NCBI GenBank assembly: GCA_029964075.1
Contig: CM057149.1
Location: 3,544,465 to 3,608,464 of the forward strand
DNA from: Patiria pectinifera
Taxonomy: Eukaryota > Echinodermata > Asteroidea > Valvatida > Asterinidae
Direction: 5' to 3'
DNA: 64,000 nucleotides
Shown here piece by piece: positions 24,847 to 39,804 of the stretch. The position numbers and the translations under genes are program-made. Each line of letters begins with the position of its first letter. The stretch's first letter is position 1. A model generated the notes under the pieces. The model searched no databases, had not been told where the DNA came from, and saw nothing but the letters and a program-made list of their open reading frames with translations.

Positions 24847-25221
24847 AGTAGTAGGGGAGGTGGGGGTATGGGACCAAAATGGAAAATCTGCGGCCAGTCT
24901 GGACACGCCGCTCTCGATTCTAAAAATAGTTGGAGGAAAAATATAGGGGAATCCCCCGCGGCAAATGTTTTAGAAATCTGACGTCAGGTTTGGGAGCAAA
25001 AAAGAAAAATGTGTGTCAAGTCAGGGCCTGTCGCTCTGGAGTTAAAAAAATAAATCTGTCGTCGCTAAAATGAGGTGATGTCACCACCACGTGACTTTGA
25101 AAAATGTGTGAGTCACCACCACGCGACCTTGAAACGTGTTGAGGCATGATAGGAATGTGGCGTAAACAACGTGACCTTGAAAAATGTGTGAGTCACCAGC
25201 ACGTGACCTTGAAACTCGGGC
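24847..25221 (+). repeat. Polinton left terminal inverted repeat
   Basis: 375 bp, matching the reverse complement of 39430-39804 with three substitutions counted by eye. The inner half contains two copies of a subrepeat of about 50 bp with CACGTGAC, a run GAAAAATGTGTGAGTCAC and GACCTTGAAAC. Terminal repeats of Polintons are the replication origins for protein-primed DNA synthesis and the integrase substrates (family knowledge). Confidence 0.95.
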
Positions 25222-25335
25222 CCATTATCTCTCGTCTTGAAGATCCCTCACCAGCCGGTGAGTCTGATTGCTTATAAATCTAACGTCTGCCTTCAAAAAA
25301 AATGAGAAAAAAAATATTATATTTCCTATAATAAA

Positions 25336-28300
25336 ATGGAGAGTAATATGTTCAGACCGACCGTCAAAGGATATTCTAAATGGAACAAAGCCACGCTGCG
25401 TGATTACGTGCAGCGATATAATATACCGCACAATGAAAATGTTTCTCTTACTCGTAAAGTTTACATCGAGGGGATAAAAAATTACGAAGCTCAATTTAAA
25501 AACAAGAGGAAAAAGAAACTTCATGAGCTCAAACAGATTGTAGACGAACAAAATCTAGAATACGTACCGACGGGGTATAAAGGACGATTTTTGAAAAAAG
25601 ATCTAATCTCGGCGATTAAAACATACAGACAACCCGAAGACTTTACAGAGTCAGCTTTTAGAGAAACGAGAAGGTTTAGAAATTACTACAGAAACTGGGA
25701 ATTAAACCCCAGACTTTATAATCACGATTTAATCAAGTTTTTTGATTCGCACAAGGAACAAATAGTCAATAAAATCAAGTCAGAATTGAGAGAGCTGAGA
25801 GGTTTAAAACTGGAGCTCACAATCAAAATAAAATACGAAAAAACCAAACCGGATGGTACGATCGAAACGATCGAAGCTATTCATTATAGCAAGCCGAAAG
25901 CCGTTTTAAATCAAAGTCAAATAAAACAGGTTTTAAAAGAAGAGATCGAAGAGCTATTTAAAAAGGATGAAAGGTATACGAATCAAGGATCGGGTTGGGT
26001 TTTTAAAAAGATAATGGCGTTATACATCAACATCAACAGATATAATCCAGCGAGAGGTAGTTCTTATATAAACCTACCCGAACATCTTAAAATTAAACAG
26101 GCGATGATAAACATCAAAAACAAAGACGACGAGTGTTTGAGATGGTGTTTGAGAGCTGCTCTTGGGTTGTATACAGATAAAGTAAAAAATCAAATAAGAA
26201 ATAATCCTAAATATAAAATTCATAAAGAAGAACCTGTTGTATACACCAAAGACGACGGACTCAGTTTTAAAGGCGTTGACTTTCCGACACCGGTCGATCA
26301 GATACCCAAGATAGAAAGACAAAATAATTTATCGATAAACGTATACGGTTATGAGGGTGAGATATATCCATTATACGTGTCTAAAAACTACGGGGCAAAA
26401 GAGATCGATCTGCTTTTGATTTCTAAAGGTGACGAGCATCACTATTGTTGGATAAAATATTTTACGAGGTTGATGTACGACGTTACCAAACATAAATGTA
26501 AGAAATATTTTTGTCGAAGATGTCTATGTCATTTTACCAATCAAAATAAATTAGACAGACATATCGCCGATTGTAAGGGTATAGATGCACATCCATCAAA
26601 GATTGTATTTCCGACGGGTAAACCAAAATACATAGACGGGCAACCAGGCGAAAGAGACGTACCGATATTAGAATTTAAAAACTATAGGCACAAACAAAAA
26701 GCACCATTTGTCATTTATGCTGACTTTGAATCCATACTACAAACAACAACACCCACACAGACACTAACATCTAAACCTACTCACTCAGACAAAGAGACAA
26801 ACACAAAAAAGATTAACGTTCACAAAGCTAGCGGTTATTCGCTAGTTGTCGTGCGATGCGACGGTAAAAATGTGTATCAAGAGACTTATAGAGGCAAAGA
26901 CGCTTCAACTAGATTTATAACAACGCTGTTACAATTACAAAGCGATATTAATTGCATATTTGAAAAACCCCAACCCATGGCATTTAACGAGCGAGCTAAA
27001 GACCATCACGATACAACAAACGCGTGTTGGATTTGCGAGAAACCAATTTATCCCAATTACTCGAGCAACTGTCAGTGCCAGAAACCCAGAGAACCCAAGA
27101 CGATAAAACAAAAGAAAGAACATCAGTACAAAAATAGTAAGGGATTTATCGAGTCTAAATGTCTAGACTGCAAAAAGAGCATTAATAAATTTAGAAAGGT
27201 CAGAGATCACTGCCACGTCACTGGTAAATATAGGGATGCCGCACACGCTTATTGTAACCTCAAACTACAAATTAAACCCGGTTGTACACCGATACCGGTC
27301 TTTTTTCACAATTTACAAAATTACGACGCGCATTTAATCATGCAGGAAATGACAGAATACGATAGCCAAACAGAAATACAAGTGATCGCTAAAAATTCAG
27401 AAAAGTATATTTCGTTTTCGATAGGAAATCTACGATTTTTAGACTCGTTTAGTTTTATGGCATCATCGTTGGATAAATTAGTGAAAGGTTGTCCAAAAGA
27501 GTCGTTTCATCTACTCAAAAAGCATTTTAAACATTCTGACTTGCTATTACAAAAAGGAATTTATCCCTACGAATATATGAACTCGTTTGATAAGTTTAAA
27601 GAGACCAGCCTACCACCCATCGACAAGTTTTACAGCAGACTAAAAGACGAACATATATCGCAACAAGACTATGACAGAGCTCAACGCGTGTGGAACGAGT
27701 TTAATATACAAAATCTAGGAGAATATCACGACTTGTACGTGACTACCGATACGTTATTACTTGCAGGCGTATTTGAAAACTTTAGACAAACGTGTATAAC
27801 AAACTACGGGCTAGATCCAGCCAATTATTTTACCGCACCCGGATTGTCCTGGGATGCTCTATTGAAACACTCGAAAGCTAAACTCGAACTGTTACAAGAC
27901 GTCGACAAACACTTATTTTTTGAAAAAGCAAAACGAGGAGGCATATCTAGCGTGGGTGGAATGAGACATCACAAAGCCAATAATCAATATCTTGATGACT
28001 ACGATTCAAACAAGCCCTCGAGTTATATCGCTTATTTGGATGCCAACAATCTGTACGGTTGGGCTATGAGTCAATATCTACCGTACAGTGATTTTAAATG
28101 GACTCCCTCGAAACCGTTTACCGAAGAAAGAATATTAACGCTTAAGAAAACGTCCAACACCGGCTACTTTTTCGAAGTAGATTTAGACTACCCGCACGAT
28201 CTACACAACAAGCATAACGATTATCCCCTAGCACCCGAAAATATCGTCGTACCCCAAGCTTGGATGTCTGATTATCAAAACGAGTTATTGGATACCGAAC

Positions 28301-29276
28301 CTAATAGCGACGTACAAAAATTAACGTGTACGCTTAATCCAAAACAAAAATACGTGTTGCACTACGTTACGTTGCAGTCATACCTCGATCTTGGTTGAAA
28401 TGGATGAAATCTTACATCGATAAAAACACGCAACTCCGAACAAAAGCAACCTCTGATTTTGAGAAAGACTTTTTTAAACTCATGAATAACAGCGTGTTTG
28501 GTAAGACGATGGAAAACGTCAGAAATCGAATAGACGGTTACCTACTGAGAGACAATAACGAGAGCGATCAAAAAAAATACCAAAAATTAATTCAAAAACC
28601 GAGCTATAAAACAACAACGCCGTTTCCAGAATGTGACCTGTCGTTTGTCGAAACATATAAAACGACAACCGTGTTAAACAAGCCCATTTACTGCGGAGTG
28701 AGTATCTTGGATCTCTCAAAGACGCTGATGTACGATTTTTATTACAACCGATTGAAAGACAAATACGGAGATAAAATCAGGTTGATGTATACGGATACGG
28801 ACAGTCTGTTGATTGTCGTTTATACGGATGACATATACAAAGACATGCGATCTCACGGGCAATACTATGACTTTTCGAATTACAATCTGGATCACGAGTT
28901 ATACGACCCAACCAATAAGAAAGTGATCGGCAAATTTAAAGACGAGTTTGGAGGTAAGGTCATTCAAGAAGCCGTTTGCGTAAGACCCAAGATGTACTCG
29001 ATTTTAGCAGATGACAACAACATCACTCTTAAAAAGGCCAAGGGGGTCATAAAATCGGTCACTAACAAAAAATTAAAACACCGACACTACTACGACTGCA
29101 TCTTTAAAAATAAATCTAAAACAGAAACGATGACTCAAATTCGATCGGAAAATCACATCCTTTACACCATATCTCAAAATAAACTATCGTTGAGTCCGTT
29201 GGACACCAAGAGGTACATTTTACCGGATGGAATACACACGCTCGCTTATGGTCACCGTAATCTAGATATTAATTAG
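25336..29276 (+). pseudogene. PolB: Protein-primed DNA polymerase B (pPolB), broken by a small deletion
   Basis: Replicates the element using a protein primer. Part 1 (25336-28398, 1,020 residues) has SAP-like helices near residues 10-50, a C2H2-type zinc cluster near 386-414, exonuclease motifs YADFES (about 460), NYDAHLIMQ (about 662) and YHDLYVTTDT (about 797), and polymerase motif A DANNLYGW (about 903). An embedded zinc region (about 564-640) with DHCHVTGKYR resembles endonuclease VII. Part 2, in another frame from about 28389 to 29276, has motif B KLMNNSVFGKTMEN and motif C YTDTDS. At 28385-28397 the frame is lost and roughly 15 codons expected between the two halves are absent, so this is a small deletion rather than a one-base slip. 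Start chosen at ATG 25336, just after an AT-rich leader. Its 3' end overlaps the integrase 3' end by 8 bp, tail to tail. Confidence 0.9.
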
Positions 29277-30270
29277 GCGGTAATTGCGTGTCCTCGGGTA
29301 CGACTTGAAGCTCTTGTCTCACAAAACTCCTTTTTGGGCCGTCTTGCAGGTAATAAAGAGTAGGACCCGTCGTGACTTTTTTACCTTCAATCATTTTAAA
29401 TTGACTCGTTCTTTTTTCCACGTTGAAGATGTCTACGCTCCAAATGGGATCCGTGGCTCTTCTCGAGGTTCCACCCTCTAGCTCGCCCGGGTAATATAAA
29501 TATCTAACCATGGCGTCTTGCGGTAATTGTTGCTCTTTTGTTTTAACGGGGTTAGCCGGCGATTGCCGGACCTGTTTTAGTTTAACCGCCTCTGACGGCG
29601 CTTTAGCTATTAATCTCGTCGTTTCATCGTTTATAGCTTTGATCACGCTGGGTAATCGGTCGACCCATTGCGTGTTTCTACTCTCGGGATTTAACATTTC
29701 TTGAGCGTACTGATGACCAAACAGTCTCTCGGCTAGCGTTCGATTAAATCTTTCTACGATACCCTGCGATCGGTGGTTTCCGGGTTCGCCTACGATAATC
29801 TCGACGTTTTTTGAGGTCATCCATTTTTTAAAAGCGCCTTTAAATTCGGTACCGGCGTCTACTCTCAACGTTTTAGGGTAACTCAAAGGCGACCTCGCGT
29901 AAATCTTAACGATAGCATCCTGGGTGGAATCTGCCGTTTTAGAAACCAAAGGTTCTGCTTCGTGGTATCGACTCGCAACATCGACAACCGTCAAAGCGTA
30001 TTTATAAGTCTTGCGTTTTACTTTATCCCAGGGTAGGTATAGCACATCCATTTGGTGAAAGTCGTTTGGTGTTTCAAACTCTCGCGAAGTACTCGTAGGC
30101 CTGGGTACATACGCAGGACCCGGTAGATAAATTTGCCAGATCGCTTGTTTTTTAAGCCAATCTCTGATTACCTTTTTATCGATTTTGGTTTTATCGTGTA
30201 AATGGTCGACGGCGCTTTCACCTCTCCAATAACCGCTCGGGCTATAATACAGTTTAGATAATGTTTGCAT
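29269..30270 (-). CDS. INT: Polinton RVE-type integrase
   Basis: 333 residues. DDE/RNase-H-fold integrase that inserts the element and generates the 5-6 bp duplication. An N-terminal helical region is followed by the catalytic core with D75 (QMDVLYLP), D138 (RVDAGTEF) and E173 (SQGIVERFN), 34 residues between the last two. All three acidic residues are present. The C-terminal half carries an SH3/chromo-like segment (PIWSVDIFNV, YYLQD). Start ATG at 30270 follows a TATATTAAA-like motif (30274-30289, reverse strand) shared with other genes of the element. It is divergent from the small membrane protein at 30302 and converges with PolB. It looks intact. Confidence 0.95.
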   Translation of the reverse strand: MQTLSKLYYSPSGYWRGESAVDHLHDKTKIDKKVIRDWLKKQAIWQIYLPGPAYVPRPTSTSREFETPNDFHQMDVLYLPWDKVKRKTYKYALTVVDVASRYHEAEPLVSKTADSTQDAIVKIYARSPLSYPKTLRVDAGTEFKGAFKKWMTSKNVEIIVGEPGNHRSQGIVERFNRTLAERLFGHQYAQEMLNPESRNTQWVDRLPSVIKAINDETTRLIAKAPSEAVKLKQVRQSPANPVKTKEQQLPQDAMVRYLYYPGELEGGTSRRATDPIWSVDIFNVEKRTSQFKMIEGKKVTTGPTLYYLQDGPKRSFVRQELQVVPEDTQLPPN

Positions 30271-30273
30271 ATT

Positions 30274-30289
30274 ATTTAATATAAAAGAC
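30274..30289 (-). promoter_or_regulatory. Divergent promoter region with TATATTAAA motif
   Basis: On the minus strand, gtcttttatattaaat lies just upstream of the integrase ATG (30270). On the plus strand tataaaag precedes ATG 30302. Same arrangement as at 36883-36900. Confidence 0.5.
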
Positions 30290-30301
30290 GTTTATAATAA
30301 T

Positions 30302-30724
30302 ATGGCTAGCGTTGCTATGATGATAGGAGGCGCGATCGTCAACGCCTTAGCTTTTACGGGTTCAAACTTTTTATTTTCAAATCTGAAACAGAGCGACGAG
30401 GAGCGTAAGAGACACGATTTAGCGATAGAACAACTCTCAGCCGCCAAAGATAAGTGGCAACGAGAACGAACGAAATATCTGGATTTTCTAAACGAACGTA
30501 TCAGAAAACAAAATGCCTCTAAAGAAACATTTTCTAACGTAGACCGAGCGTTGCGTTACTACAACGAGGTGAGTAGACAATCTACCGAACTACCCGTAGG
30601 ACTGCAACACGAACCCAAACTCGAAGATTTTTACGAGCCTAGCGACCAACAAATTGAAAAAGAACTGGTGTTTATCGCGGGAGGAACGCTATTGGTGGGC
30701 TTCTTGGCTTACAGATACCTTTAA
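30302..30724 (+). CDS. Small Polinton membrane/coiled-coil protein
   Basis: 140 residues. A hydrophobic, small-residue-rich N-terminus (ASVAMMIGGAIVNALAFTGS) is followed by a charged coiled-coil region (residues about 30-75, rich in Glu, Arg and Lys), a conserved F-x-x-VDRALRYYNEV segment, and a C-terminal membrane segment (LVFIAGGTLLVGFLAYRYL). Proteins of this layout sit next to integrase or capsid genes in many Polintons. Their function is not established; a virion membrane or scaffold role is an inference. Starts 31 bp from the divergent integrase start and ends 22 bp before the major capsid gene. Confidence 0.8.
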   Translation: MASVAMMIGGAIVNALAFTGSNFLFSNLKQSDEERKRHDLAIEQLSAAKDKWQRERTKYLDFLNERIRKQNASKETFSNVDRALRYYNEVSRQSTELPVGLQHEPKLEDFYEPSDQQIEKELVFIAGGTLLVGFLAYRYL

Positions 30725-30746
30725 ATTTAAAACTCGTATAAATAAA

Positions 30747-32015
30747 ATGAATGCGTATGGAAAAAAGCTCAATCCCAGCAGGCTATTAAAAATACCCAGA
30801 TCTATCAAGGGTGAGAGAAAAGAGGTGGTCATTACCCACAATCCCAGTAGTATATCGGCGGGGCAAACGCTGAGGGTCAAGTTTCCTCAATTGGGTGTAG
30901 ACGACGTGATCGTACCCGGCACTTGTAAACTAGCTTTCAATTTAGAACTCGAAGGTGGAAGCGACAACAATAGAACTATTTTTGGTAATTTAGCCAGAAA
31001 TTTAGTCAGCGAAATCAGCGTCAGGCTTCAAGGTCACGAAATTGTGAGTTATCGTCACGCCGACGTGTATCACAACTTTAAAGACAATTGGATCAACAGC
31101 TCGACGACTCGAAACATGGCGTACTCGGGCATAGAAAAAGAAAACGTGTCTAAACTAAGAACTGGGGCTGAAGATGCTAACGCGGGCGCCAACAACGGTA
31201 AGGATCAAGCTATCGCGGATGCCTATGGTAACAGATATTGTATTCCCCTAGACATTGACATACTGACTTCGCATCACCCTTTTTACCCCAGCGGTTTAAA
31301 ACAACCTCTGACGTGCGAGATAAAGTTTAACGATCACGAAAAAGTCGTCAACAGTTCAGATACGGCGGCGATGTATTCTATCTAAGACTTGTCTCTCGAA
31401 TACGAAGTGGTGACCAACAGAGACCTAGCTATCAGCATCAGGAATAAACACAAGGGGTTAATGCAATATCTGTTTGATAAAATCCACTCACTAGAAGTTA
31501 GATCCGTCAACAAATCGGACACGCTTTGGAACGTCAGCGTCAATCAACCCATCAGGAGTCTCAAGGGTATTTTGTTTTTGTTTAAAGATCTCGCGGTCAA
31601 AAATCCGCAGCGATTTTACAATCCAAAAATAACCAAAACATCGGTGACCGTAGAAGGTAAACCCAATCAACTCTACAGTCAAGGCATGTTTCAGTATCAA
31701 CACTGGAATGAAATCAACAAGTTCTTTGGAGACAGCGATACCGAAAGCGGGCGCGGAGTAGCTAAAGACTTAAATTTGACGGGTTTTGACCTCGGAGACT
31801 ACCTAAAAGACAAGTACGGTCTGTGGCTCGATTTTAGAAGTAACGACGACAATTCCGCTCACGGATCCGGTAGGAAACTCGGAGACGGAGGAGGCATCAA
31901 CATTCAATTTAACAGAGAAGCCGAAGGTCAAGGTGACCTCACGATGTACGTATTTTTAGTCATGGATGCTCAATTGAACTTGGAAGACGGAAATTTTAAA
32001 TCTCTGTTAAGTTAA
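30747..32015 (+). pseudogene. MCP: Major capsid protein, double jelly roll, with one in-frame stop
   Basis: 422 codons plus stop. Forms the capsid hexons. The N-terminal part reads SIKGERKEVVITHNPSS and VIVPGTCKLAFNL, typical of Polinton capsid strands. The second half (SLEYEVVTNRDLA onward to a C-terminal MYVFLVMDAQL strand) is the second jelly roll. A TAA at 31383-31385 (codon 213) divides it, and the frame is unchanged on both sides, so a single substitution or sequencing error is enough to explain it. Start chosen at ATG 30747, which lies after the upstream gene ends and follows cgtataaataaa; a further in-frame ATG exists at 30654 inside the neighbour. The stop at 32013 is one base before the ATPase start. 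Confidence 0.85.
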
Positions 32016-32016
32016 A

Positions 32017-32622
32017 ATGACACAACCGCATTGCGCTTTAATCGTCGGCAAAACAAATTCGGGCAAAACCAAATGGATTTTGGATCTGTTAGAGTCAGAC
32101 TATAAAAACACATTTGAGGCGATAGTCATCATTTGCCCTACCATATTTAAAAACAAAACGTACATCGAAAGAAAGTGGATTCAAGCAGATCCCGAGGTAT
32201 ACCTCTGCGATCCGGAATTGTACAAGATGACGCTCAACGAAGCGATCGATTTTTACAGGAAAATATTTGAAGGTGTTGCCACGTTGTTTATCGTGGACGA
32301 TTGCTCTTCGGATCAAGAGATTAAATATCGTAAAAAGACGTGCGCGCTAAGCAAGATGGCATTTAGCGGAAGACACGTAAATCACAGCTGTTGGTTACTG
32401 ACCCAAAAGTACAACAGCGTTTTAAAAGATTATAGAGAAAACACGGCTTGGTTGGCATTATTTTACTGCAAAAATAAAACATCGTTTGATCAAGCGTTAG
32501 ACGAAAACGACGTCGTACCCATTGAACAACGAGATTATATAAAACGACGTTTGAGAGATGTGAAATATAGTAAATTGGTCGTATACACCGAACCTCCAGT
32601 TAGTTACAAGCTACTTGAGTAG
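32017..32622 (+). CDS. ATP: FtsK/HerA-type genome-packaging ATPase
   Basis: 201 residues. Pumps DNA into the capsid. Walker A is G11-KTNSGKT-18, preceded by the strand ALIV, and Walker B is LFIVDD with D94 and D95. A downstream Q134-type sensor region (WLLTQKYNSV) also fits the A32-like family of Polintons, virophages and large DNA viruses. The length is typical. The start is one base after the capsid gene stop, so the two are probably co-transcribed. The stop codon forms the first bases of a 22-bp tandem array. Intact. Confidence 0.92.
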   Translation: MTQPHCALIVGKTNSGKTKWILDLLESDYKNTFEAIVIICPTIFKNKTYIERKWIQADPEVYLCDPELYKMTLNEAIDFYRKIFEGVATLFIVDDCSSDQEIKYRKKTCALSKMAFSGRHVNHSCWLLTQKYNSVLKDYRENTAWLALFYCKNKTSFDQALDENDVVPIEQRDYIKRRLRDVKYSKLVVYTEPPVSYKLLE

Positions 32623-32823: not shown

Positions 32824-32976
32824 ATGATAGCAATATTCGAGTATATGCAGTTTTTGGCTATTATCATCATATCGCTTAATTTATCGTTTTACACATACGA
32901 ATACCTTTGCTTTTGTAACAAAGTTGCAACAGCTACAACAAAATTAAATTCGTTTCTAATTAAATGGAGGACTTAA
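32824..32976 (+). CDS. Possible 50-aa membrane microprotein
   Basis: ATG at 32824, stop TAA at 32974-32976. It has one strongly hydrophobic segment (FLAIIIISLNLSF, residues about 10-22) followed by a Cys/aromatic patch and a basic end. It overlaps the start of the next gene by 13 bp in another frame. No family is recognised. It may be a chance open frame, but the hydrophobic helix near the N-terminus and its position make it worth recording. Confidence 0.3.
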   Translation: MIAIFEYMQFLAIIIISLNLSFYTYEYLCFCNKVATATTKLNSFLIKWRT

Positions 32977-33542
32977 AACTTACTTTAACGAACGAACAAG
33001 ATCACAACGCAGAACATAAAGATCGTTTGTGCGGTGTCGTAGCAGCCGGAAACTCTAGAAAATACTTGGGAAAGGAATACACCGTTAAACATATCGAAGC
33101 TCTTGACAGTAAAGAACTCGAAAAGCTGTATCATCTGTACGAAACTAAATTTGGAAATGAAATTGTTAAAACCGTTGGTAAATACACTTTAAGTCTATTT
33201 TCGAGAGTGTTAGCTGTTGTTACACCCGTACAAGTTTTAGGATATAACGTCACTATAGATTCTGAAGAAGAACTCACCAACGACTTGAGTTCCGATCCTA
33301 TTATAAGCGCGAGTATGGCTGGTATGTTGAGCGACGTTTGTTACAAGTACGGAACTTTAATATCACCCCTAGTAGCTACGATTATCACAACAAAACATTT
33401 GAAATTTAATAAACCTAATATAGTAAATGGAAGATCAGAAAGCAGCGACAGCAACGCCTGCAGCTCAACCAGCAGAGACAGAGACGCCCCCACCGATAAA
33501 AACAACGACGTCACCGACGGTAACGAGAGTGACCAAGACTAA
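32964..33542 (+). CDS. Conserved Polinton protein of unknown function, 192 aa
   Basis: The core (residues about 28-155) has the pattern YTVKHIEALDSKELEKLYHL, then a GKYTLSLFSRVLAV helix, then DLSSDPIISASM and YGTLISPLVATIITTKH. This matches a helical protein found repeatedly among Polinton small genes; its function is unknown. The last 40 residues are a Ser/Asp-rich tail encoded where the next gene begins in another frame, so the tail may be under relaxed constraint. Start ATG follows attaa, 8 bp upstream of the microprotein's end. Confidence 0.75.
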   Translation: MEDLKLTLTNEQDHNAEHKDRLCGVVAAGNSRKYLGKEYTVKHIEALDSKELEKLYHLYETKFGNEIVKTVGKYTLSLFSRVLAVVTPVQVLGYNVTIDSEEELTNDLSSDPIISASMAGMLSDVCYKYGTLISPLVATIITTKHLKFNKPNIVNGRSESSDSNACSSTSRDRDAPTDKNNDVTDGNESDQD

Positions 33543-33810
33543 AAATCCTAAACGAATTCAGCAGGGTAAAGCTTTAGCCGAGCACAATAGACAGATGAAA
33601 TTAAAATTAGCAAAAATGGACGTAACATCGGTCGATAATACGAGCTCACCAGACTACAACTCTTGGGCGATGTGGGGGGCTATAGCGTCTATAATAGGGG
33701 TGGGGCTGCTGGTACTAAAAAGTAAGGCAACTGCGCCGGTAATACAGCCAGTGCCGGTAGTCACGCAACCCACTACACCCAGCGCCCCCAAAACGCTAGA
33801 CATGGAATAA
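33427..33810 (+). CDS. Basic, membrane-anchored Polinton protein, 127 aa
   Basis: A Pro/Thr-rich N-terminus is followed by a basic motif NPKRIQQGKALAEHNRQMK, then a C-terminal membrane helix (WGAIASIIGVGLLVL, residues about 84-98) and a Pro/Thr tail. The first 116 bp overlap the preceding gene in a different frame. Basic K-P-K-R-x-x-x-G-K-x-L-A-x-x-N-R motifs recur in small Polinton proteins and recall DNA-binding core peptides; that role is an inference. Confidence 0.65.
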   Translation: MEDQKAATATPAAQPAETETPPPIKTTTSPTVTRVTKTKNPKRIQQGKALAEHNRQMKLKLAKMDVTSVDNTSSPDYNSWAMWGAIASIIGVGLLVLKSKATAPVIQPVPVVTQPTTPSAPKTLDME

Positions 33811-34108: not shown

Positions 34109-35368
34109 ATGGCTGAGGGAGGATTTGACTTTGACCCCGTTGATGATTACGATTACGATGACGATGATGATGTAGCAGAGACCAATTTGGACGACAACTT
34201 TGATACTCCTGTACCACCCATCCTCACTACCGACATAGATGACGTTTTAGATCAAGGAAGAAGCATGGTCACTAATGGGCGCGTTGATGAGTTTTACGAT
34301 ACTTATAACATATACAATAAACCAATATCTCCGAGATACGAAAAATTTATTCTCAACACAGAAGGTTTATTTTATGACACTGGTAAAGGCTTACTAAGGT
34401 TAACGGATCAAAGAAAACCAGACAGATTCTTGACTCTGAGGACTATAGAGTTAAATGTAAGAAAGATGGGCTTAAACGGTAGAGATTTTATTAGAAAGGA
34501 ATTAGGCTTTACGCATTACGAACGTAAGACACTCAGTGACGATCAAAGTCAACAACTGCAATCGATACAACCCGAGAGTATCCCCATGACAGAACTCCCC
34601 AGAGTCACCGATGAGGTTATCGAGATTATAGACGATTTAGAACAAGACACCGGCGCTCAAACAGAAGGATTGAATTACAGAGAACTCCAGGGTTTAGACA
34701 AAACTCTTCAGACGTTGAGAGGTAACCTAGAACTTAATTTAGCGCGTCTCACAGAACTGGACCGAGAGATTGCAGCCACGAGACAAGAACTCGACGAATC
34801 TCACAGCGAGGAGGGTCGACGAGAGTTAAACGATAAATTGAGCGACTTGAACGTTGAAAGATCCGCCAGATTAGAAGCCGCAAAAGCCAACGAACGAGGG
34901 CTCAAAAGTCAGATCGCTAGAATCAAAGAAACGATTAATAAAATATTAGGCGACGACACGACTCTGGCAGAAAAGATCAGAACTCTGTTTAGAGAACAAG
35001 GTGTGACCGTAGTGAGTATTTTAGCCGCTTTGAGTTTAGCCATCAGCACGATAGTGAGTAGCATCGTCGCTAGCGTGAGAGGTGCGGGTGCCCCACCCGC
35101 GCCAACACCTGCACCAACACCAACACCAACACCAACACCAAAAGGTGGTATCAAAGAGTGGATTTCAAAACAACTCGCTAATTTTGCATCTGCTCTTCGA
35201 AAACTGGGAGTGAGCGCGTTGGGTGCTCTGCCGGGTATCATAGGCAGCGTACTCAGTTGGATATTTAACGCGTTGAGTAAGTCCGTATCGTGGTTGGCCG
35301 AACACGTGTGGGCTTTGTTTTTGGGTGTGGGAGCCTTGGTGTTTGCGTACCTGCAAAAACGATGGTAG
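34109..35368 (+). CDS. Coiled-coil protein with C-terminal membrane segments, 419 aa
   Basis: An acidic N-terminus (an Asp run at residues 12-21) is followed by a globular or helical region. A long coiled coil spans about residues 195-295 (repeated Leu/Glu/Arg heptads). Then come a membrane-like helix (VVSILAALSLAISTIVSSIV, near 305-324), a Pro-Thr linker encoded by a CCAACA microsatellite (35098-35140), and two further hydrophobic helices ending in VWALFLGVGALVFAYLQKRW. No enzyme motif. It may be a scaffold or penton-base-associated virion protein; this is inferred from its position among structural genes. It converges on the 469-aa gene across a hairpin terminator. Confidence 0.7.
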   Translation: MAEGGFDFDPVDDYDYDDDDDVAETNLDDNFDTPVPPILTTDIDDVLDQGRSMVTNGRVDEFYDTYNIYNKPISPRYEKFILNTEGLFYDTGKGLLRLTDQRKPDRFLTLRTIELNVRKMGLNGRDFIRKELGFTHYERKTLSDDQSQQLQSIQPESIPMTELPRVTDEVIEIIDDLEQDTGAQTEGLNYRELQGLDKTLQTLRGNLELNLARLTELDREIAATRQELDESHSEEGRRELNDKLSDLNVERSARLEAAKANERGLKSQIARIKETINKILGDDTTLAEKIRTLFREQGVTVVSILAALSLAISTIVSSIVASVRGAGAPPAPTPAPTPTPTPTPKGGIKEWISKQLANFASALRKLGVSALGALPGIIGSVLSWIFNALSKSVSWLAEHVWALFLGVGALVFAYLQKRW

Positions 35369-35396
35369 TTATAGTTGTAATCAAGTTTAAACAAAA

Positions 35397-35441
35397 AAAT
35401 AAAAGCCTTACCAGCGCAAAGTTGGTAAGGCTTATTTTTTT
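35397..35441. terminator. Bidirectional hairpin with A- and T-tracts between convergent genes
   Basis: Stem AAGCCTTACCA (35403-35413) pairs with TGGTAAGGCTT (35423-35433) around a 9-base loop. A run of seven A on the left and a T-run on the right extend the symmetry, so both strands read as a GC-containing stem followed by a T-tract. It lies 28 bp after the stop of the upstream + gene and 19 bp before that of the minus gene. It looks like a transcription end signal for both. Confidence 0.7.
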
Positions 35442-35459
35442 GTGTCATTAGAGCGTGAC

Positions 35460-36869
35460 TTATCGCGTTGCCTCATAAGCCAAAATACCCATACCAACGA
35501 TAGCTAATATTCCTACCGTCAACGATAATTTTTCGTCTTGGTGAGTTTGTAGTTTCGTGGGCTCCTGTGTTAAAACTGTAGGTGCTGATGTTGGTGAGGG
35601 TGTTGGTGCTGGTGTTGGTGCTGGTGCAGGTGATACAACATCGTTTGTCATAGGCTCTGGGGGTGTTGGTGGCGCGACGTCATCGGTGTCATCAAAAGAG
35701 TCGTCTGGTTGAGGTTGTGCGTTTAAATCTGGCACCAAACCAGTGTTCATACTCTGGGTAGCGATTTGAAGATTGTTGTTATAGCCGTCGTGCGTTCCAA
35801 CCCTCAAGTTCATATCCGATGGAATTAAATACAACCCCGGTTTCACGACAAAATTTAAAGGCGTTCTGGCATACTGCAAAGAGTCTTGAAATTGATTGAT
35901 ACTCGTTTCCATGTCGTCTACTGCATTGATGATATTTTCAACGATGACGTTAAATTGTCTCTGAGCGTCTAATCCGGTTCCCGGTGATAATACGCTCGTT
36001 TTTGTTTGAGCCTGCGCACCGAGTAAAGCGTACACGTAAGATCTAATTGATTCGTTGATCTTTATGATTCCCGCGGAGGTAAACGAACTCGTTTTGGGTA
36101 TAAAATCTAACCAAGCCTTTTGTACCGATTCATTTTGTTCGATGTAAATAACCGTCCAAGGAACGTAAAGGCTTCCACTCTTTTTGGGACTGTCTAGACC
36201 GTGGTAGCCGCCGTAAAGAACGTTAGGTTTGTTGGGTAGTGCTTTATCATATTCACCAACCGCCACAAACTTGCCTTTATTAAAGATATATGAGGTACCT
36301 AAACCGTTAGATTTTGTGTCTCTTGTCTGTTTAAAAGACTTGTTTTGATCTATGCCAAACAACAAACAGGTATCGGTAAATGCTCTGTGATTATAACTGT
36401 TGTCTAGAGCGTTAAATGCGTCATCTCCCGGTAAAGGAGCGGCAATGTCGTACAGGATCTTTCTAACCGTAAAATATAAATGAAAGTTAAAGATGGCCCA
36501 AACGTAACAGTTGCTCGCATTGAAAAGATCGAATCCAATACCGCAGCCCGTAGTAGCGCAGTAGATCGCAAAATTTAACTGATTTTGATAAAACGACATG
36601 GGGTGTGATTTCCAACGATCTACATCCTCGTCCGTCTCAACGTGAGGCAATTTGTAGTCCGAGGTTAAGTCGGGAAACATGGTTAAAAACCCGTTGGTAT
36701 TATTAACAATGACCTCCAGTTCACCGGGTTTAGTGCTGTTTAAAAACTTTGCTTGGGGTGCAGCTTGATGTTTTAGCTCGTTTGCCTTGGCTACATTTTG
36801 ATTTACTTGTCTCGTTACCTGATCGGCTATCGATTGTATCTGCTTTTTTAACGACTTAAAATCACTCAT
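35460..36869 (-). CDS. Polinton virion-protein candidate, 469 aa, C-terminal membrane anchor
   Basis: N-terminal helical region, then a mixed alpha/beta core with conserved-looking stretches (VLYGGYHGLDSPKK, VPWTVIYIEQNES, DMNLRVGTHDGYNNN). This is followed by an acidic region, a long Pro/Thr/Ala linker (residues about 398-430) and a C-terminal hydrophobic helix (LTVGILAIVGMGILAY). Genes of this layout occur in Polintons, but I do not recognise a characterised function. Start ATG 36869 lies downstream of a TTTTTATATTAAAA motif at 36883-36900 (minus strand), in a divergent promoter region shared with the gene at 36911. Confidence 0.7.
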   Translation of the reverse strand: MSDFKSLKKQIQSIADQVTRQVNQNVAKANELKHQAAPQAKFLNSTKPGELEVIVNNTNGFLTMFPDLTSDYKLPHVETDEDVDRWKSHPMSFYQNQLNFAIYCATTGCGIGFDLFNASNCYVWAIFNFHLYFTVRKILYDIAAPLPGDDAFNALDNSYNHRAFTDTCLLFGIDQNKSFKQTRDTKSNGLGTSYIFNKGKFVAVGEYDKALPNKPNVLYGGYHGLDSPKKSGSLYVPWTVIYIEQNESVQKAWLDFIPKTSSFTSAGIIKINESIRSYVYALLGAQAQTKTSVLSPGTGLDAQRQFNVIVENIINAVDDMETSINQFQDSLQYARTPLNFVVKPGLYLIPSDMNLRVGTHDGYNNNLQIATQSMNTGLVPDLNAQPQPDDSFDDTDDVAPPTPPEPMTNDVVSPAPAPTPAPTPSPTSAPTVLTQEPTKLQTHQDEKLSLTVGILAIVGMGILAYEATR

Positions 36870-36882
36870 TATTTTAGTTTCA

Positions 36883-36900
36883 GTTTTAATATAAAAAGAC
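36883..36900 (-). promoter_or_regulatory. Divergent promoter region with TATATTAAAA motif
   Basis: Read on the minus strand this is gtctttttatattaaaac, 14 bp upstream of the 469-aa gene start. On the plus strand the same bases give tataaaaag, a TATA-box-like string 11-18 bp before ATG 36911. One AT-rich block may serve both genes. Confidence 0.5.
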
Positions 36901-36910
36901 TTTAAAATAA

Positions 36911-37270
36911 ATGCATTCGTTTCACTTGTTTCAAAATGAGCAGACGTTTAAATTAGAAGACGTTGTAGATAATTTAAACGGTCAAAAATCTATACGCGTA
37001 AAAAGGGTGTTGTTTAACGCCGGATATTTTAATATTTCCAGCGCCACGGAGATTGATTGGTTTACGCAAATAGATGGGAGACCCGCGTTTACCACAGATA
37101 AACCTCCCCTCATACCCGCGGAGTTTCTTTCAGATGTACACATAACAACGCCGGATAGAGATTTTATAGAGCGATTGTTACCCGATATACCATACCACTA
37201 TTTATTTAACGATGAAAATGTTTTACAAAAAAACTATAAACGATCTTATAAAAGCGTACGAAGACGATAG
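36911..37270 (+). CDS. N-terminal part of a penton-like minor capsid protein (or separate gene), 119 aa
   Basis: It begins MHSFHLFQNEQTFKLEDV and contains a strand-rich stretch IRVKRVLFNAGYFNIS, like the opening strands of viral jelly-roll minor capsid proteins. The last 20 residues (KNYKRSYKSVRRR) are basic and look out of frame. The next gene begins inside it at 37212 in the +1 frame, next to an A7 run at 37226-37232. Either two genes overlap by 59 bp or one gene carries a frameshift. Confidence 0.55.
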   Translation: MHSFHLFQNEQTFKLEDVVDNLNGQKSIRVKRVLFNAGYFNISSATEIDWFTQIDGRPAFTTDKPPLIPAEFLSDVHITTPDRDFIERLLPDIPYHYLFNDENVLQKNYKRSYKSVRRR

Positions 37271-38093
37271 ACTAGAATCCGTTTTAGAATCAAACAAAAG
37301 AAAAAGAGCTATTATAGCTGAACGGCGAGGGTTGATTTTAGCCGCCATGAATTCAGAAACACCAAAAACTGAATTAGAACTAAATACGCTTCAATCTTTA
37401 GTAAGAATATTATTTGTTAGAGAAAGAAAAATCTTTGAAGGTGAGGAATTGGCTTTAAAGTTTATTGAAGGAGAAATGGGTGCGAGCGAGTTGAGCGAGT
37501 TGAGAGATAATAGAGAAGCAGGAGTGATTATAAGAGGAAGTCTTATCGTGACGGGTGATGATTTCGATTTTATTCCTCCGAGTCATTTAGAGCCGTTGCC
37601 ACTCGGAAGTATCGGTTCGGTCATCATACCGCCGGGGTGGTACGACGTCGATTGGTTCGATTTCATTTTAAATTCTATACCCGGGGTAAGTTTTCGAGTA
37701 TTTAGAGAATCTAAAAAGGTGACGTTGGTGATAACCGACGTAAATCTCAAATTGCGCTTGAACAGAGAAGTATCTCGATTACTCAATTTACCCAAAGGAA
37801 GACTGGTACCCAAAGTGGTGTACACGGGGTATTACGACGTTAATCCGTTTAAATTTTTGTTTATTCGCTGCCCGCAATTAAGTACGAGTGAAAACTTTTT
37901 TAATGGTCGACCGTCTGACATCTTAAAAATCGTACCCGTGGCTACGCGCAAACCCGAGCCTGATAGAGTCGAGGATTTCAAAAAACTTAAAAACGGTATA
38001 ATCGACAAACTGACATTTTCTATCAGCGGTGAAAAAGGACAGGTATTCAACAATAAGGGTGAGGGTATCATTATCGAGTTGGAGATCTTTTAA
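37212..38093 (+). CDS. Penton-like minor capsid protein, single jelly roll (C-terminal part)
   Basis: 293 residues. The first 105 are helical and charged. The rest carries the Polinton minor-capsid pattern: VIIPPGWYDVDWFDFILNSI, strands KKVTLVITDVNLKLRLN, a RLLNLPKG turn, then FKFLFIRCP, ILKIVPV, and a terminal strand IIIELEIF. In Polintons and virophages this protein occupies capsid vertices. The helical N-terminal block is larger than usual and may be an insertion between the first and later strands. See the preceding entry on frame overlap. It ends 26 bp before the next gene. Confidence 0.65.
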   Translation: MKMFYKKTINDLIKAYEDDRLESVLESNKRKRAIIAERRGLILAAMNSETPKTELELNTLQSLVRILFVRERKIFEGEELALKFIEGEMGASELSELRDNREAGVIIRGSLIVTGDDFDFIPPSHLEPLPLGSIGSVIIPPGWYDVDWFDFILNSIPGVSFRVFRESKKVTLVITDVNLKLRLNREVSRLLNLPKGRLVPKVVYTGYYDVNPFKFLFIRCPQLSTSENFFNGRPSDILKIVPVATRKPEPDRVEDFKKLKNGIIDKLTFSISGEKGQVFNNKGEGIIIELEIF

Positions 38094-38103
38094 TTTTAAA
38101 ATC

Positions 38104-38119
38104 TTTTTATATTAAAAAC
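38104..38119 (+). promoter_or_regulatory. TATATTAAAAAC start-proximal motif
   Basis: tttttatattaaaaac directly abuts ATG 38120. Same motif as at 33830-33842. Confidence 0.5.
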
Positions 38120-38776
38120 ATGAGTGTAGATGGTAAGGCGTTATACCCCGATATTTCTGGAGATGTACTCCGATTAAATAGTAACGAAGAAACAGAAGTG
38201 TACAGACTTAAAAAGATTGAAGAGATTCGATCTTTAATCTTGAAAGAGAGAGACCACCGAGAGCGCACTTATAAAAAAATAAAGAGAATGATCGACACTA
38301 TTCATTACGTAGAGATAGGATTAGAAGGATTGGGGGCTATAGCGGGGGCTGTCAGTATTCCCGCTCTCTTGGGTGTTATATCAGCCCCCGTTGGATTGGT
38401 GCTAGAAGGAACGTTTATGGGCGCTTTTGGTGTAGATATTCTGCTTAGAATCGCGTCTAAGCGATTAGCCGCCAAGCTGAAAAAGCACGACCAGATTAAA
38501 ATATTAGCAGACTCCAAACTTAACACGATTGAAGAATACGTGTCTCAAGCCATCAACGACGGAGATATATCGCACGAAGAGTTCTTACTGATTACGAGAG
38601 AACTCGCAAAATTTAACGAGCTTAAGCAAAAAATTAGAACAAAGACCAGCACAAAGCTTCAAAAAATTAAAAACGATACAGACTTTGAAAAAGAAGTTAA
38701 AAAACGGGTAGACGAACGGCTGGCAAAAGAAAAAAAATCTCTCATCGAAAAACTTACAAGTTCAAATTCTCGGTAA
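38120..38776 (+). CDS. Conserved Polinton protein with glycine-rich hydrophobic segment, 218 aa
   Basis: An N-terminal charged helix (RDHRERTYKKIKRMI) is followed by a small-residue hydrophobic core (LEGLGAIAGAVSIPALLGVI, about 72-91, continuing to 110). Then come SKRLAAKLKKHDQIKIL, ISHEEFLLITRELAKFNELK and a lysine-rich C-terminal coil. This order (charged helix, glycine-rich loop, SKRL-x-x-K-x-x-KH, ISxEEFxxIxxEL) is a recurrent Polinton protein. Its function is unknown; membrane insertion is suggested by the hydrophobic core. ATG follows a TATATTAAAAAC motif (38104-38119) directly. Confidence 0.8.
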   Translation: MSVDGKALYPDISGDVLRLNSNEETEVYRLKKIEEIRSLILKERDHRERTYKKIKRMIDTIHYVEIGLEGLGAIAGAVSIPALLGVISAPVGLVLEGTFMGAFGVDILLRIASKRLAAKLKKHDQIKILADSKLNTIEEYVSQAINDGDISHEEFLLITRELAKFNELKQKIRTKTSTKLQKIKNDTDFEKEVKKRVDERLAKEKKSLIEKLTSSNSR

Positions 38777-38804: not shown

Positions 38805-39296
38805 TTATACCTCTATTTCACCTCTTAGGGCTATACCCTCGGCCCCGCCTTTATTGTAGTGGTCATCGTATCTTTTTAGTGCCTTATTAAATTGCTTTTG
38901 AGTCACTTTAAATACATCTCTAACTCGTTCTTTGTTCCATCCAACGACGTGATGGTAACAGGCCGCTATTAACGACCGTTTTACGCAACCATTTCCCCTC
39001 AATGTTTTATAATTAACGAGTTCGTTATATTTGTTGATTGTTTCTTGGACATCTTCTACGTCTTGCTCTGGACAAACAGAAAAAATAAGTTTCTCTATAG
39101 TTTTTCTTTTGTTTCTTTTTAAAGTTGACCAATTGATACGATCTTCTTGCGCATTTTCTGCCGAAAAATCAAAGTAACGTGAGACTATTTCACCGCACGT
39201 TTCACAAACTAAAAAACCATTCTCGATGATTATATGGTGATCGCACTGATCTGTTTTATTAGATAGCTCGAGGTTTTCACTCTGAAAAAAAGTCAT
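38805..39296 (-). CDS. TFIIB-like transcription initiation factor
   Basis: 163 residues. A zinc ribbon spans residues 18-35: C18-x2-H21 ... C31-x2-C34-G, inside CDHHIIIENGFLVCETCG. A B-linker-like acidic/polar stretch (SRYFDFSAENAQEDRINW) follows, as in TFIIB. Residues about 83-148 look like one cyclin repeat: KTLRGNGCVKRSLIAACYHH, then NKERVRDVFKVTQKQFNKAL, matching the RG...AAC...helix-turn-helix pattern that contacts DNA beside TATA. Eukaryotic TFIIB has two cyclin repeats and about 315 residues; single-repeat or short forms occur in large DNA viruses. It would recruit RNA polymerase to the element's promoters (inference). It converges on the 38120 gene with a 28-bp gap. No disruption seen. 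Confidence 0.75.
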   Translation of the reverse strand: MTFFQSENLELSNKTDQCDHHIIIENGFLVCETCGEIVSRYFDFSAENAQEDRINWSTLKRNKRKTIEKLIFSVCPEQDVEDVQETINKYNELVNYKTLRGNGCVKRSLIAACYHHVVGWNKERVRDVFKVTQKQFNKALKRYDDHYNKGGAEGIALRGEIEV

Positions 39297-39350
39297 GGAT
39301 ATATCTAATAAAAACCGATATTATTTTTTAATAATTTTTTAAGTACTCGT

Positions 39351-39378
39351 CGGTCTGAACATATTACTCTCCATTTTT
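39351..39378 (-). repeat. Inverted copy of the PolB gene start
   Basis: 28 bp at the right end are the perfect reverse complement of AAAATGGAGAGTAATATG and the next ten bases around the PolB ATG (25333-25360). Both copies sit just inside the terminal repeats, separated from them by unrelated sequence (111 bp on the left, 51 bp on the right). Confidence 0.9.
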
Positions 39379-39388
39379 AAATAAAAAC

Positions 39389-39429
39389 AGCTTCTCTACC
39401 TTTTCACAGATAGAGAAGCTATTTTTTTT
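39389..39429. terminator. Hairpin and T-tract at the inner edge of the right terminal repeat
   Basis: AGCTTCTCTA (39389-39398) pairs with TAGAGAAGCT (39411-39420) around a 12-base loop, followed by ATTTTTTTT. It is preceded by an A-run, so it is symmetrical like the hairpin at 35397. It could stop transcription entering or leaving the element. Confidence 0.6.
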
Positions 39430-39804
39430 GCCCGAGTTTCAAGGTCAAGTGGTGGTGACTCACACATTTTTCAAGGTCACGTTGTTTACGCCACATTCCT
39501 ATCATGCCTCAACACGTTTCAAGGTCGCGTGGTGGTGACTCACACATTTTTCAAAGTCACGTGGTGGTGACATCACCTCATTTTAGCGACGACAGATTTA
39601 TTTTTTTAACTCCAGAGCGACAGGCCCTGACTTGACACACATTTTTCTTGTTTGCTCCCAAACCTGACGTCAGATTTCTAAAACATTTGCCGCGGGGGAT
39701 TCCCCTATATTTTTCCTCCAACTATTTTTAGAATCGAGAGCGGCGTGTCCAGACTGGCCGCAGATTTTCCATTTTGGTCCCATACCCCCACCTCCCCTAC
39801 TACT
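39430..39804 (-). repeat. Polinton right terminal inverted repeat
   Basis: 375 bp, the inverted copy of 24847-25221. It ends CCTCCCCTACTACT at the target-site duplication. The inner edge abuts a hairpin and T-tract at 39389-39429. Confidence 0.95.

Follow-up and report, generated by a model that had tools for sequence, protein, structure and literature searches.

Does a Polinton in a sea-star genome encode its own, much reduced version of the basal transcription factor TFIIB, and if so, what might the protein do for the element? This question is raised by an open reading frame (ORF) at 38805..39296 (minus strand) in a 64,000-nucleotide stretch of Patiria pectinifera DNA (contig CM057149.1, positions 3,544,465 to 3,608,464; hereafter the window, from whose first letter all coordinates are counted). 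The ORF is flanked by orf218 and the Polinton's right terminal repeat, and a first-pass annotation had interpreted its product as a TFIIB-like factor that could direct polymerase to the promoters of the element. Polintons are widely seen as close to where many DNA viruses of eukaryotes originated, and to our knowledge their gene regulation is almost unstudied. Our analyses uphold the first half of that interpretation, the identity of the protein, and provide circumstantial backing for the second half through a promoter motif shared by many of the element's genes.

A TFIIB-like protein with a single cyclin-type domain

The ORF extends from an ATG to a stop codon and encodes a protein of 163 amino acids, whose assignment draws on the ORF itself, structure models, fold matches and substitution rates. 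The protein comprises a zinc ribbon (approximately residues 18–39), a linker (40–65) and a single cyclin-type domain (66–149), in which helices H4 and H5 form the helix-turn-helix. The ribbon expected by the first-pass annotation, C-x2-H...C-x2-CG, is present as C18-x2-H21...C31-x2-C34-G35 and agrees with the C-x2-C/H...C-x2-C pattern of the TFIIB/TFB family. Similarly, the anticipated cyclin-like repeat with RG...AAC and a helix-turn-helix corresponds to an LRG...IAAC stretch and, towards the C-terminus, a region resembling a helix-turn-helix. The linker (for this purpose approximately residues 46–65) had been described as acidic, which is correct for its first part only; its second part is basic.

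Comparison of a predicted structure with TFIIB, which had been proposed as a check, bore out the identity. The model has a three-strand ribbon and, C-terminal to it and the short linker, five helices, all of which superpose on repeat 1 of TFIIB, to which the cyclin fold fits most closely. TFIIBs were ranked first for the predicted fold in two independent structure libraries, TFIIB entries stood above Orc6 entries in Foldseek and VIA, and the nearest viral folds of the whole model were the TFIIBs of iridoviruses and giant viruses. The two outcomes that had been named as contrary to a TFIIB identity, the lack of a match to a ribbon or cyclin fold and a better match to an unrelated zinc protein, did not arise. 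The protein stops after its five-helix domain and has no second cyclin repeat.

At the sequence level, an hhalign comparison with 22 animal TFIIBs aligned the ribbon alone (probability 13, P 0.0021), a score equalled by one of 150 column shuffles, and the cyclin part by itself did not match TFIIB (P 0.49). Smith-Waterman alignment of the cyclin part (six targets, uncorrected) gave z scores of 4.7 with human TFIIB repeat 1, 4.5 with Pyrococcus TFB and 3.1 with sea-star TFIIB, and of 1.3–1.4 with Brf1, the BRF1 exon and Brf2.

Several results limit the TFIIB assignment. Searches of Pfam and NCBIfam returned no TFIIB match for the window protein; neither PF08271, PF00382 nor any other TFIIB profile matched it or the 13 alignment members; and PDB sequences gave no match by single sequence or by profile. 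In addition, the structure models were built on shallow alignments. The VLTF3 profile PF04947 was also absent from the Pfam matches, which miss TFIIB as well. Because the protein failed two tests of the TFIIB family, the presence of two repeats and a profile match, we refer to it as TFIIB-like. Overall, the proposal of a TFIIB layout reduced to a single repeat, in a Polinton, is supported by structure prediction and weakly by sequence.

Conservation of the gene among genomic copies

A search of the 613.5-Mb genome yielded 715 candidates, of which the best 150 were scored, favouring good copies. Within this set the TFIIB-like gene has at least 150 matches genome-wide, at 91–100% identity; by hand count, 88 of these contain no stop codon, 60 contain two TAA codons and two contain one internal stop. 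In the members of the 60-match subgroup that were fetched and seen (4/60), the two TAA codons precede a later start codon. The protein of this later-starting subgroup begins MNLELS... and is 157 residues long.

Twenty copies were fetched and, since they were selected for having the TFIIB-like gene, intactness is not comparable between genes. The four ribbon ligands are kept in all 20 (19 by pattern and L022 by eye), the glycine after the last Cys of the ribbon is lost in one (L022), and the first ATG is absent in three (L015, L018 and L021). The ratio of nonsynonymous to synonymous substitution rates (dN/dS) of the gene was 0.20 (Nei-Gojobori, 210 pairs from 21 copies), and a second count, with 18 sequences, gave 0.25. 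In that second count, the values for other element genes were 0.13 for the ATPase, 0.28 for orf192, 0.38 for orf469, 0.45 for orf218 and 0.50 for orf419, as well as 0.74 for orf293, which is based on two sequences only. The TFIIB-like gene is under purifying selection.

A promoter motif shared by many genes of the element

Inspection of the sequence ahead of each start codon revealed a common AT-rich word that surrounds a short core containing G/C. Twelve of 14 ORFs were used for a motif search, with orf184 (which likely continues the capsid gene) and orf293 (whose start lies within orf119) left out. Three runs of a Gibbs search of the 12 upstream regions scored 164.6, 164.6 and 154.6; the maximum was 145.6 for 100 dinucleotide shuffles and 157.2 for 100 draws from 407 AT-rich control ATGs of the flanks, one draw scoring at least 154.6. 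These runs superseded a first one in which search effort was unequal between data and shuffles.

In leave-one-out scoring over the 29,894 positions of the element, the number of positions that outscored a gene's own site was one for orf218 (motif instance at 38093..38114, plus strand; the best score), six for the integrase, the capsid-protein-like gene and orf469, seven for orf140, 13–17 for orf119, orf192, the ATPase, the TFIIB-like gene and orf419, 30 for orf127 and 38 for PolB. The AT-rich instance of the TFIIB-like gene (39306..39327, minus strand) ends 9 nucleotides before its ATG, and the Gibbs search placed those of the capsid-protein-like ORF and orf192 at 30724..30745 and 32941..32962, respectively (both plus strand). 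The orf419 motif lies 18 nucleotides upstream of the ATG in the best later run and directly before it in the superseded run.

Two divergent promoter regions bear on the motif. Between orf469 and orf119 lies a 41-bp region (36870..36910), recognized by its conservation among copies and present in 17 pieces. It is identical at 40–41 of 41 positions in L010, L020, L024, L025 and L027, where both flanking coding stretches are only 70–81% identical; it matches at 35 of 41 positions in L014, and three pieces are without it. We consider this conservation the best evidence for the promoter motif, although the identity could also stem from recombination at the promoter. The 31-bp region between the integrase and orf140 (30271..30301), with two motif instances, is identical at 30–31 of 31 positions in eight of ten copies and was not found in the other two.

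The motif lies 0–18 nucleotides before the ATG, which would be too near for a TATA box placed 30 nucleotides before a transcript that keeps the ATG. PolB is the exception, having a TATAAAT (25273..25279, plus strand) 63 nucleotides before its ATG. Besides TATTTAA at position −87 relative to the TFIIB-like gene, this is the only TATA-like word more than 29 nucleotides upstream of an ATG, and it is kept in five of six copies with a full PolB start (GATAAAT in the sixth) and in one partial copy. The arrangement of these sequences points to promoters of two classes: PolB, and perhaps the TFIIB-like protein too, would be served by host factors, and the remainder by the TFIIB-like protein. Also located before PolB is the word AAAAAATGAGAAAAA (25297–25311), which resembles a poxvirus early element (PMC6211774). 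We found this resemblance unconvincing, as there is one match in the window and seven of 100 window shuffles have at least one.

A candidate promoter-selecting initiation factor

The explanation we favor, to which we give about an even chance, is that the TFIIB-like protein is a promoter-selecting initiation factor that acts on the element's own genes with host RNA polymerase II. Like that of TFIIB, its zinc ribbon would dock on the polymerase, and promoter DNA would be bound by the one cyclin domain, either unaided, in dimeric form or together with host TBP. The polymerase would thereby be sent to the AT-rich motif, which sits directly at the start codons of many element genes, including the capsid-region and integrase genes, while PolB, with its conventional TATA box, may be made first by host factors alone. 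A more specific version, to which we give clearly less than an even chance, is a minimal Polinton initiation system in which a one-repeat TFIIB replaces host TFIIB on an initiator-type motif, with a host-driven early gene (PolB) and self-driven late genes.

The missing second repeat also suits a different role, that of a TFIIB mimic which occupies the polymerase dock, leaves the initiation complex incomplete and lowers host transcription, for example of defence genes. Host TFIIB is a reported target of viruses (PMC8119876, PMC5927403); however, such interference leaves the shared promoter motif of the element itself unexplained, and we think it unlikely. The motif would have a ready reader if the element behaved like a virophage, with its promoters recognized by the factors of a co-infecting large DNA virus and the TFIIB-like protein serving as a helper or adaptor that was acquired. 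Promoter motifs are common to virophages and their giant viruses (PMC8547959), and the nearest viral folds come from iridoviruses and giant viruses, but no large DNA virus was seen here, where none was searched for. The element has an integrase of its own and inserts in the manner of a Polinton, and this account seems to us slightly less probable than host interference.

Other explanations would place the protein outside transcription initiation or outside the TFIIB family. Orc6 shares the cyclin-type domain and a ribbon can bind DNA or protein, so the protein might be a DNA-binding factor for replication or for recognition of the terminal repeats. We rate this as no better a prospect than host interference, as TFIIB entries outrank Orc6 in both fold comparisons and a ribbon ahead of a cyclin domain is the TFIIB order. 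The silence of the curated profiles, together with weak matches to HTH_23 (E 0.23), DUF6492 (E 0.053) and, on the ribbon, phrog_8315 (E 0.0069), would fit an unrelated small zinc protein whose helix-turn-helix merely resembles TFIIB, such as a sequence-specific repressor. Such a protein would not be expected to superpose five helices on TFIIB repeat 1 with a ribbon ahead of them, nor to place TFIIBs first in two independent libraries, and we consider this the least probable of these explanations.

If the minimal initiation system outlined above is real, the protein would be the smallest functional TFIIB known, it would show how little of TFIIB suffices to start transcription, and it would link Polintons to the large DNA viruses that are equipped with TFIIB. 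With the TFIIB-like gene and the conserved promoter motif in hand, it becomes possible to test concretely whether Polintons follow a timed, virus-like programme of expression in animal cells.

The Polinton that carries the gene

The carrier is classed as a Polinton on the basis of its terminal repeats, rve integrase, Pox_A32 ATPase and target-site duplications. It ends at 24847 and 39804 (14,958 bp) and has terminal inverted repeats of 380 nucleotides at 99% identity according to the repeat finder. The left arm is placed at 24847..25221 (plus strand; inner end by the repeat finder, outer end by the terminus AGTAGTAGGGG) and the right arm at 39430..39804 (minus strand; repeat finder and terminus). 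The target-site duplication of Polintons is 6 bp; that of the window element is 5 bp instead (AATTT), as it is in all seven copies for which both ends were found. An eighth pair, L026/L056, showed no end. As the 5-bp duplications all differ in sequence, the window element and the seven copies represent eight separate insertions.

The PolB-like gene (25336..29276, plus strand) is split into two ORFs in the window copy (25336–28398 and 28404–29276). It has no Pfam PolB match; we presume its identity from a YTDTDS motif, position and length. The integrase (29269..30270, minus strand; rve, E 2.6e-11) and the packaging ATPase (32017..32622, plus strand; Pox_A32 family, E 1.2e-9) were identified by profile. 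Between them on the plus strand are orf140 (30302..30724), encoding a small protein with a hydrophobic segment at its C-terminus, and a capsid-protein-like gene (30747..32015; ORFs 30747–31385 and 31461–32015 in the window copy), which had no profile match and was assigned by position alone. The remaining genes, identified as ORFs, are the overlapping frames orf192 and orf127 (32964..33810, plus), orf419 (34109..35368, plus), orf469 (35460..36869, minus), the overlapping frames orf119 and orf293 (36911..38093, plus) and orf218 (38120..38776, plus), with a glycine-rich hydrophobic stretch. No RNA polymerase match was found among the scanned ORFs of the 15-kb element.

For orf419, orf469, orf119 and orf293 (34109–38093), the copies (L009–L028) carry one or the other of two diverged versions (identities of approximately 58–80% against 90–100%), in combinations that vary by copy. 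In sequence the Polinton is a mosaic, as if these genes had been swapped between co-resident copies. By eye, perfect short hairpins are present at 25242–25262 (CTCACC...GGTGAG) and 39395–39440 (AGCTTCTCTA...TAGAGAAGCT), each between a terminal repeat and the gene nearest to it. An 11-codon ORF upstream of the TFIIB-like gene, MESNMFRPTST (39345–39380, minus strand), repeats residues 1–9 of PolB; 12 of 20 copies have a PolB-like start of this kind, which is possibly a relic of a formerly longer terminal repeat.

Relatives and host TFIIB-family genes

A protein search found one relative (P0001, 158 residues, 87% identity), the only one of 11 candidates at E <= 0.01 to be accepted. Scans of IMG/VR with the TFIIB-like protein, the ATPase and part of PolB confirmed no relative, and an integrase alignment search found one distant locus (L039) and, in GTDB contigs, a 5.1-kb contaminant contig (L060).

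Genome-wide, TFIIB profiles matched host genes, namely TFIIB exons (L030; 98% identical to Acanthaster planci TFIIB), a BRF2-like gene (L034; PDB match to TFIIIB 50 kDa, E 7.7e-27) and, by resemblance, a BRF1 exon. The PF08271 search likewise matched host genes, and copies of the TFIIB-like gene were not among the matches of the genome-wide PF00382 and PF08271 searches. Tandem TRIM-like ORFs on contig C2, also matched by TFIIB profiles, were rejected as chance. Two host TFIIB loci are located approximately 157 kb apart on contig C10 (near 1,611,000 and 1,767,600), and are either a tandem duplication or an assembly haplotype.

Comparison with known systems

The sea-star protein resembles cellular TFIIB and archaeal TFB in having a C-x2-H...C-x2-CG ribbon and, C-terminal to it, a cyclin domain that in the predicted structure superposes on repeat 1. 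Unlike them, it has neither a second cyclin repeat nor a profile-level match, and its linker is approximately 25 residues long, compared to approximately 70 in human TFIIB. Orc6 has TFIIB-like cyclin domains without the zinc ribbon that is present here.

Among mobile elements, thaumarchaeal integrative and conjugative elements carry their own TFIIB homologue (PMC6563490), although these archaeal elements are conjugative, of an unrelated type, and encode full members of the TFIIB family. Some adintoviruses, Polinton-related viruses of animals, have a zinc-type regulator, 'Ziftr', which is described as CTCF-like rather than TFIIB-like, and TFIIB is unmentioned in that text (PMC11071296). In the open-access papers that our search covered, supplements excepted, we found no report of TFIIB in a Polinton, and none of the papers that mention both describes one.

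Nucleocytoplasmic large DNA viruses (iridoviruses, marseilleviruses and mimivirids; C315R type of African swine fever virus) encode TFIIB homologues that resemble the sea-star protein in their TFIIB-like fold and are its best viral model matches, but most of those matched have 236–428 residues and belong to far larger genomes, many with an RNA polymerase. For those of Chrysochromulina parva virus, a role in diverting the host's Pol II has been proposed (PMC12085832). A similar early/late logic has been proposed for gammaherpesviruses, in which early genes would be expressed via host TFIIB and late genes via virus-encoded factors (PMC8119876). The late pre-initiation complex of those viruses is made of other proteins, however, and in the Polinton a motif and a TFIIB-like gene are all that is seen.
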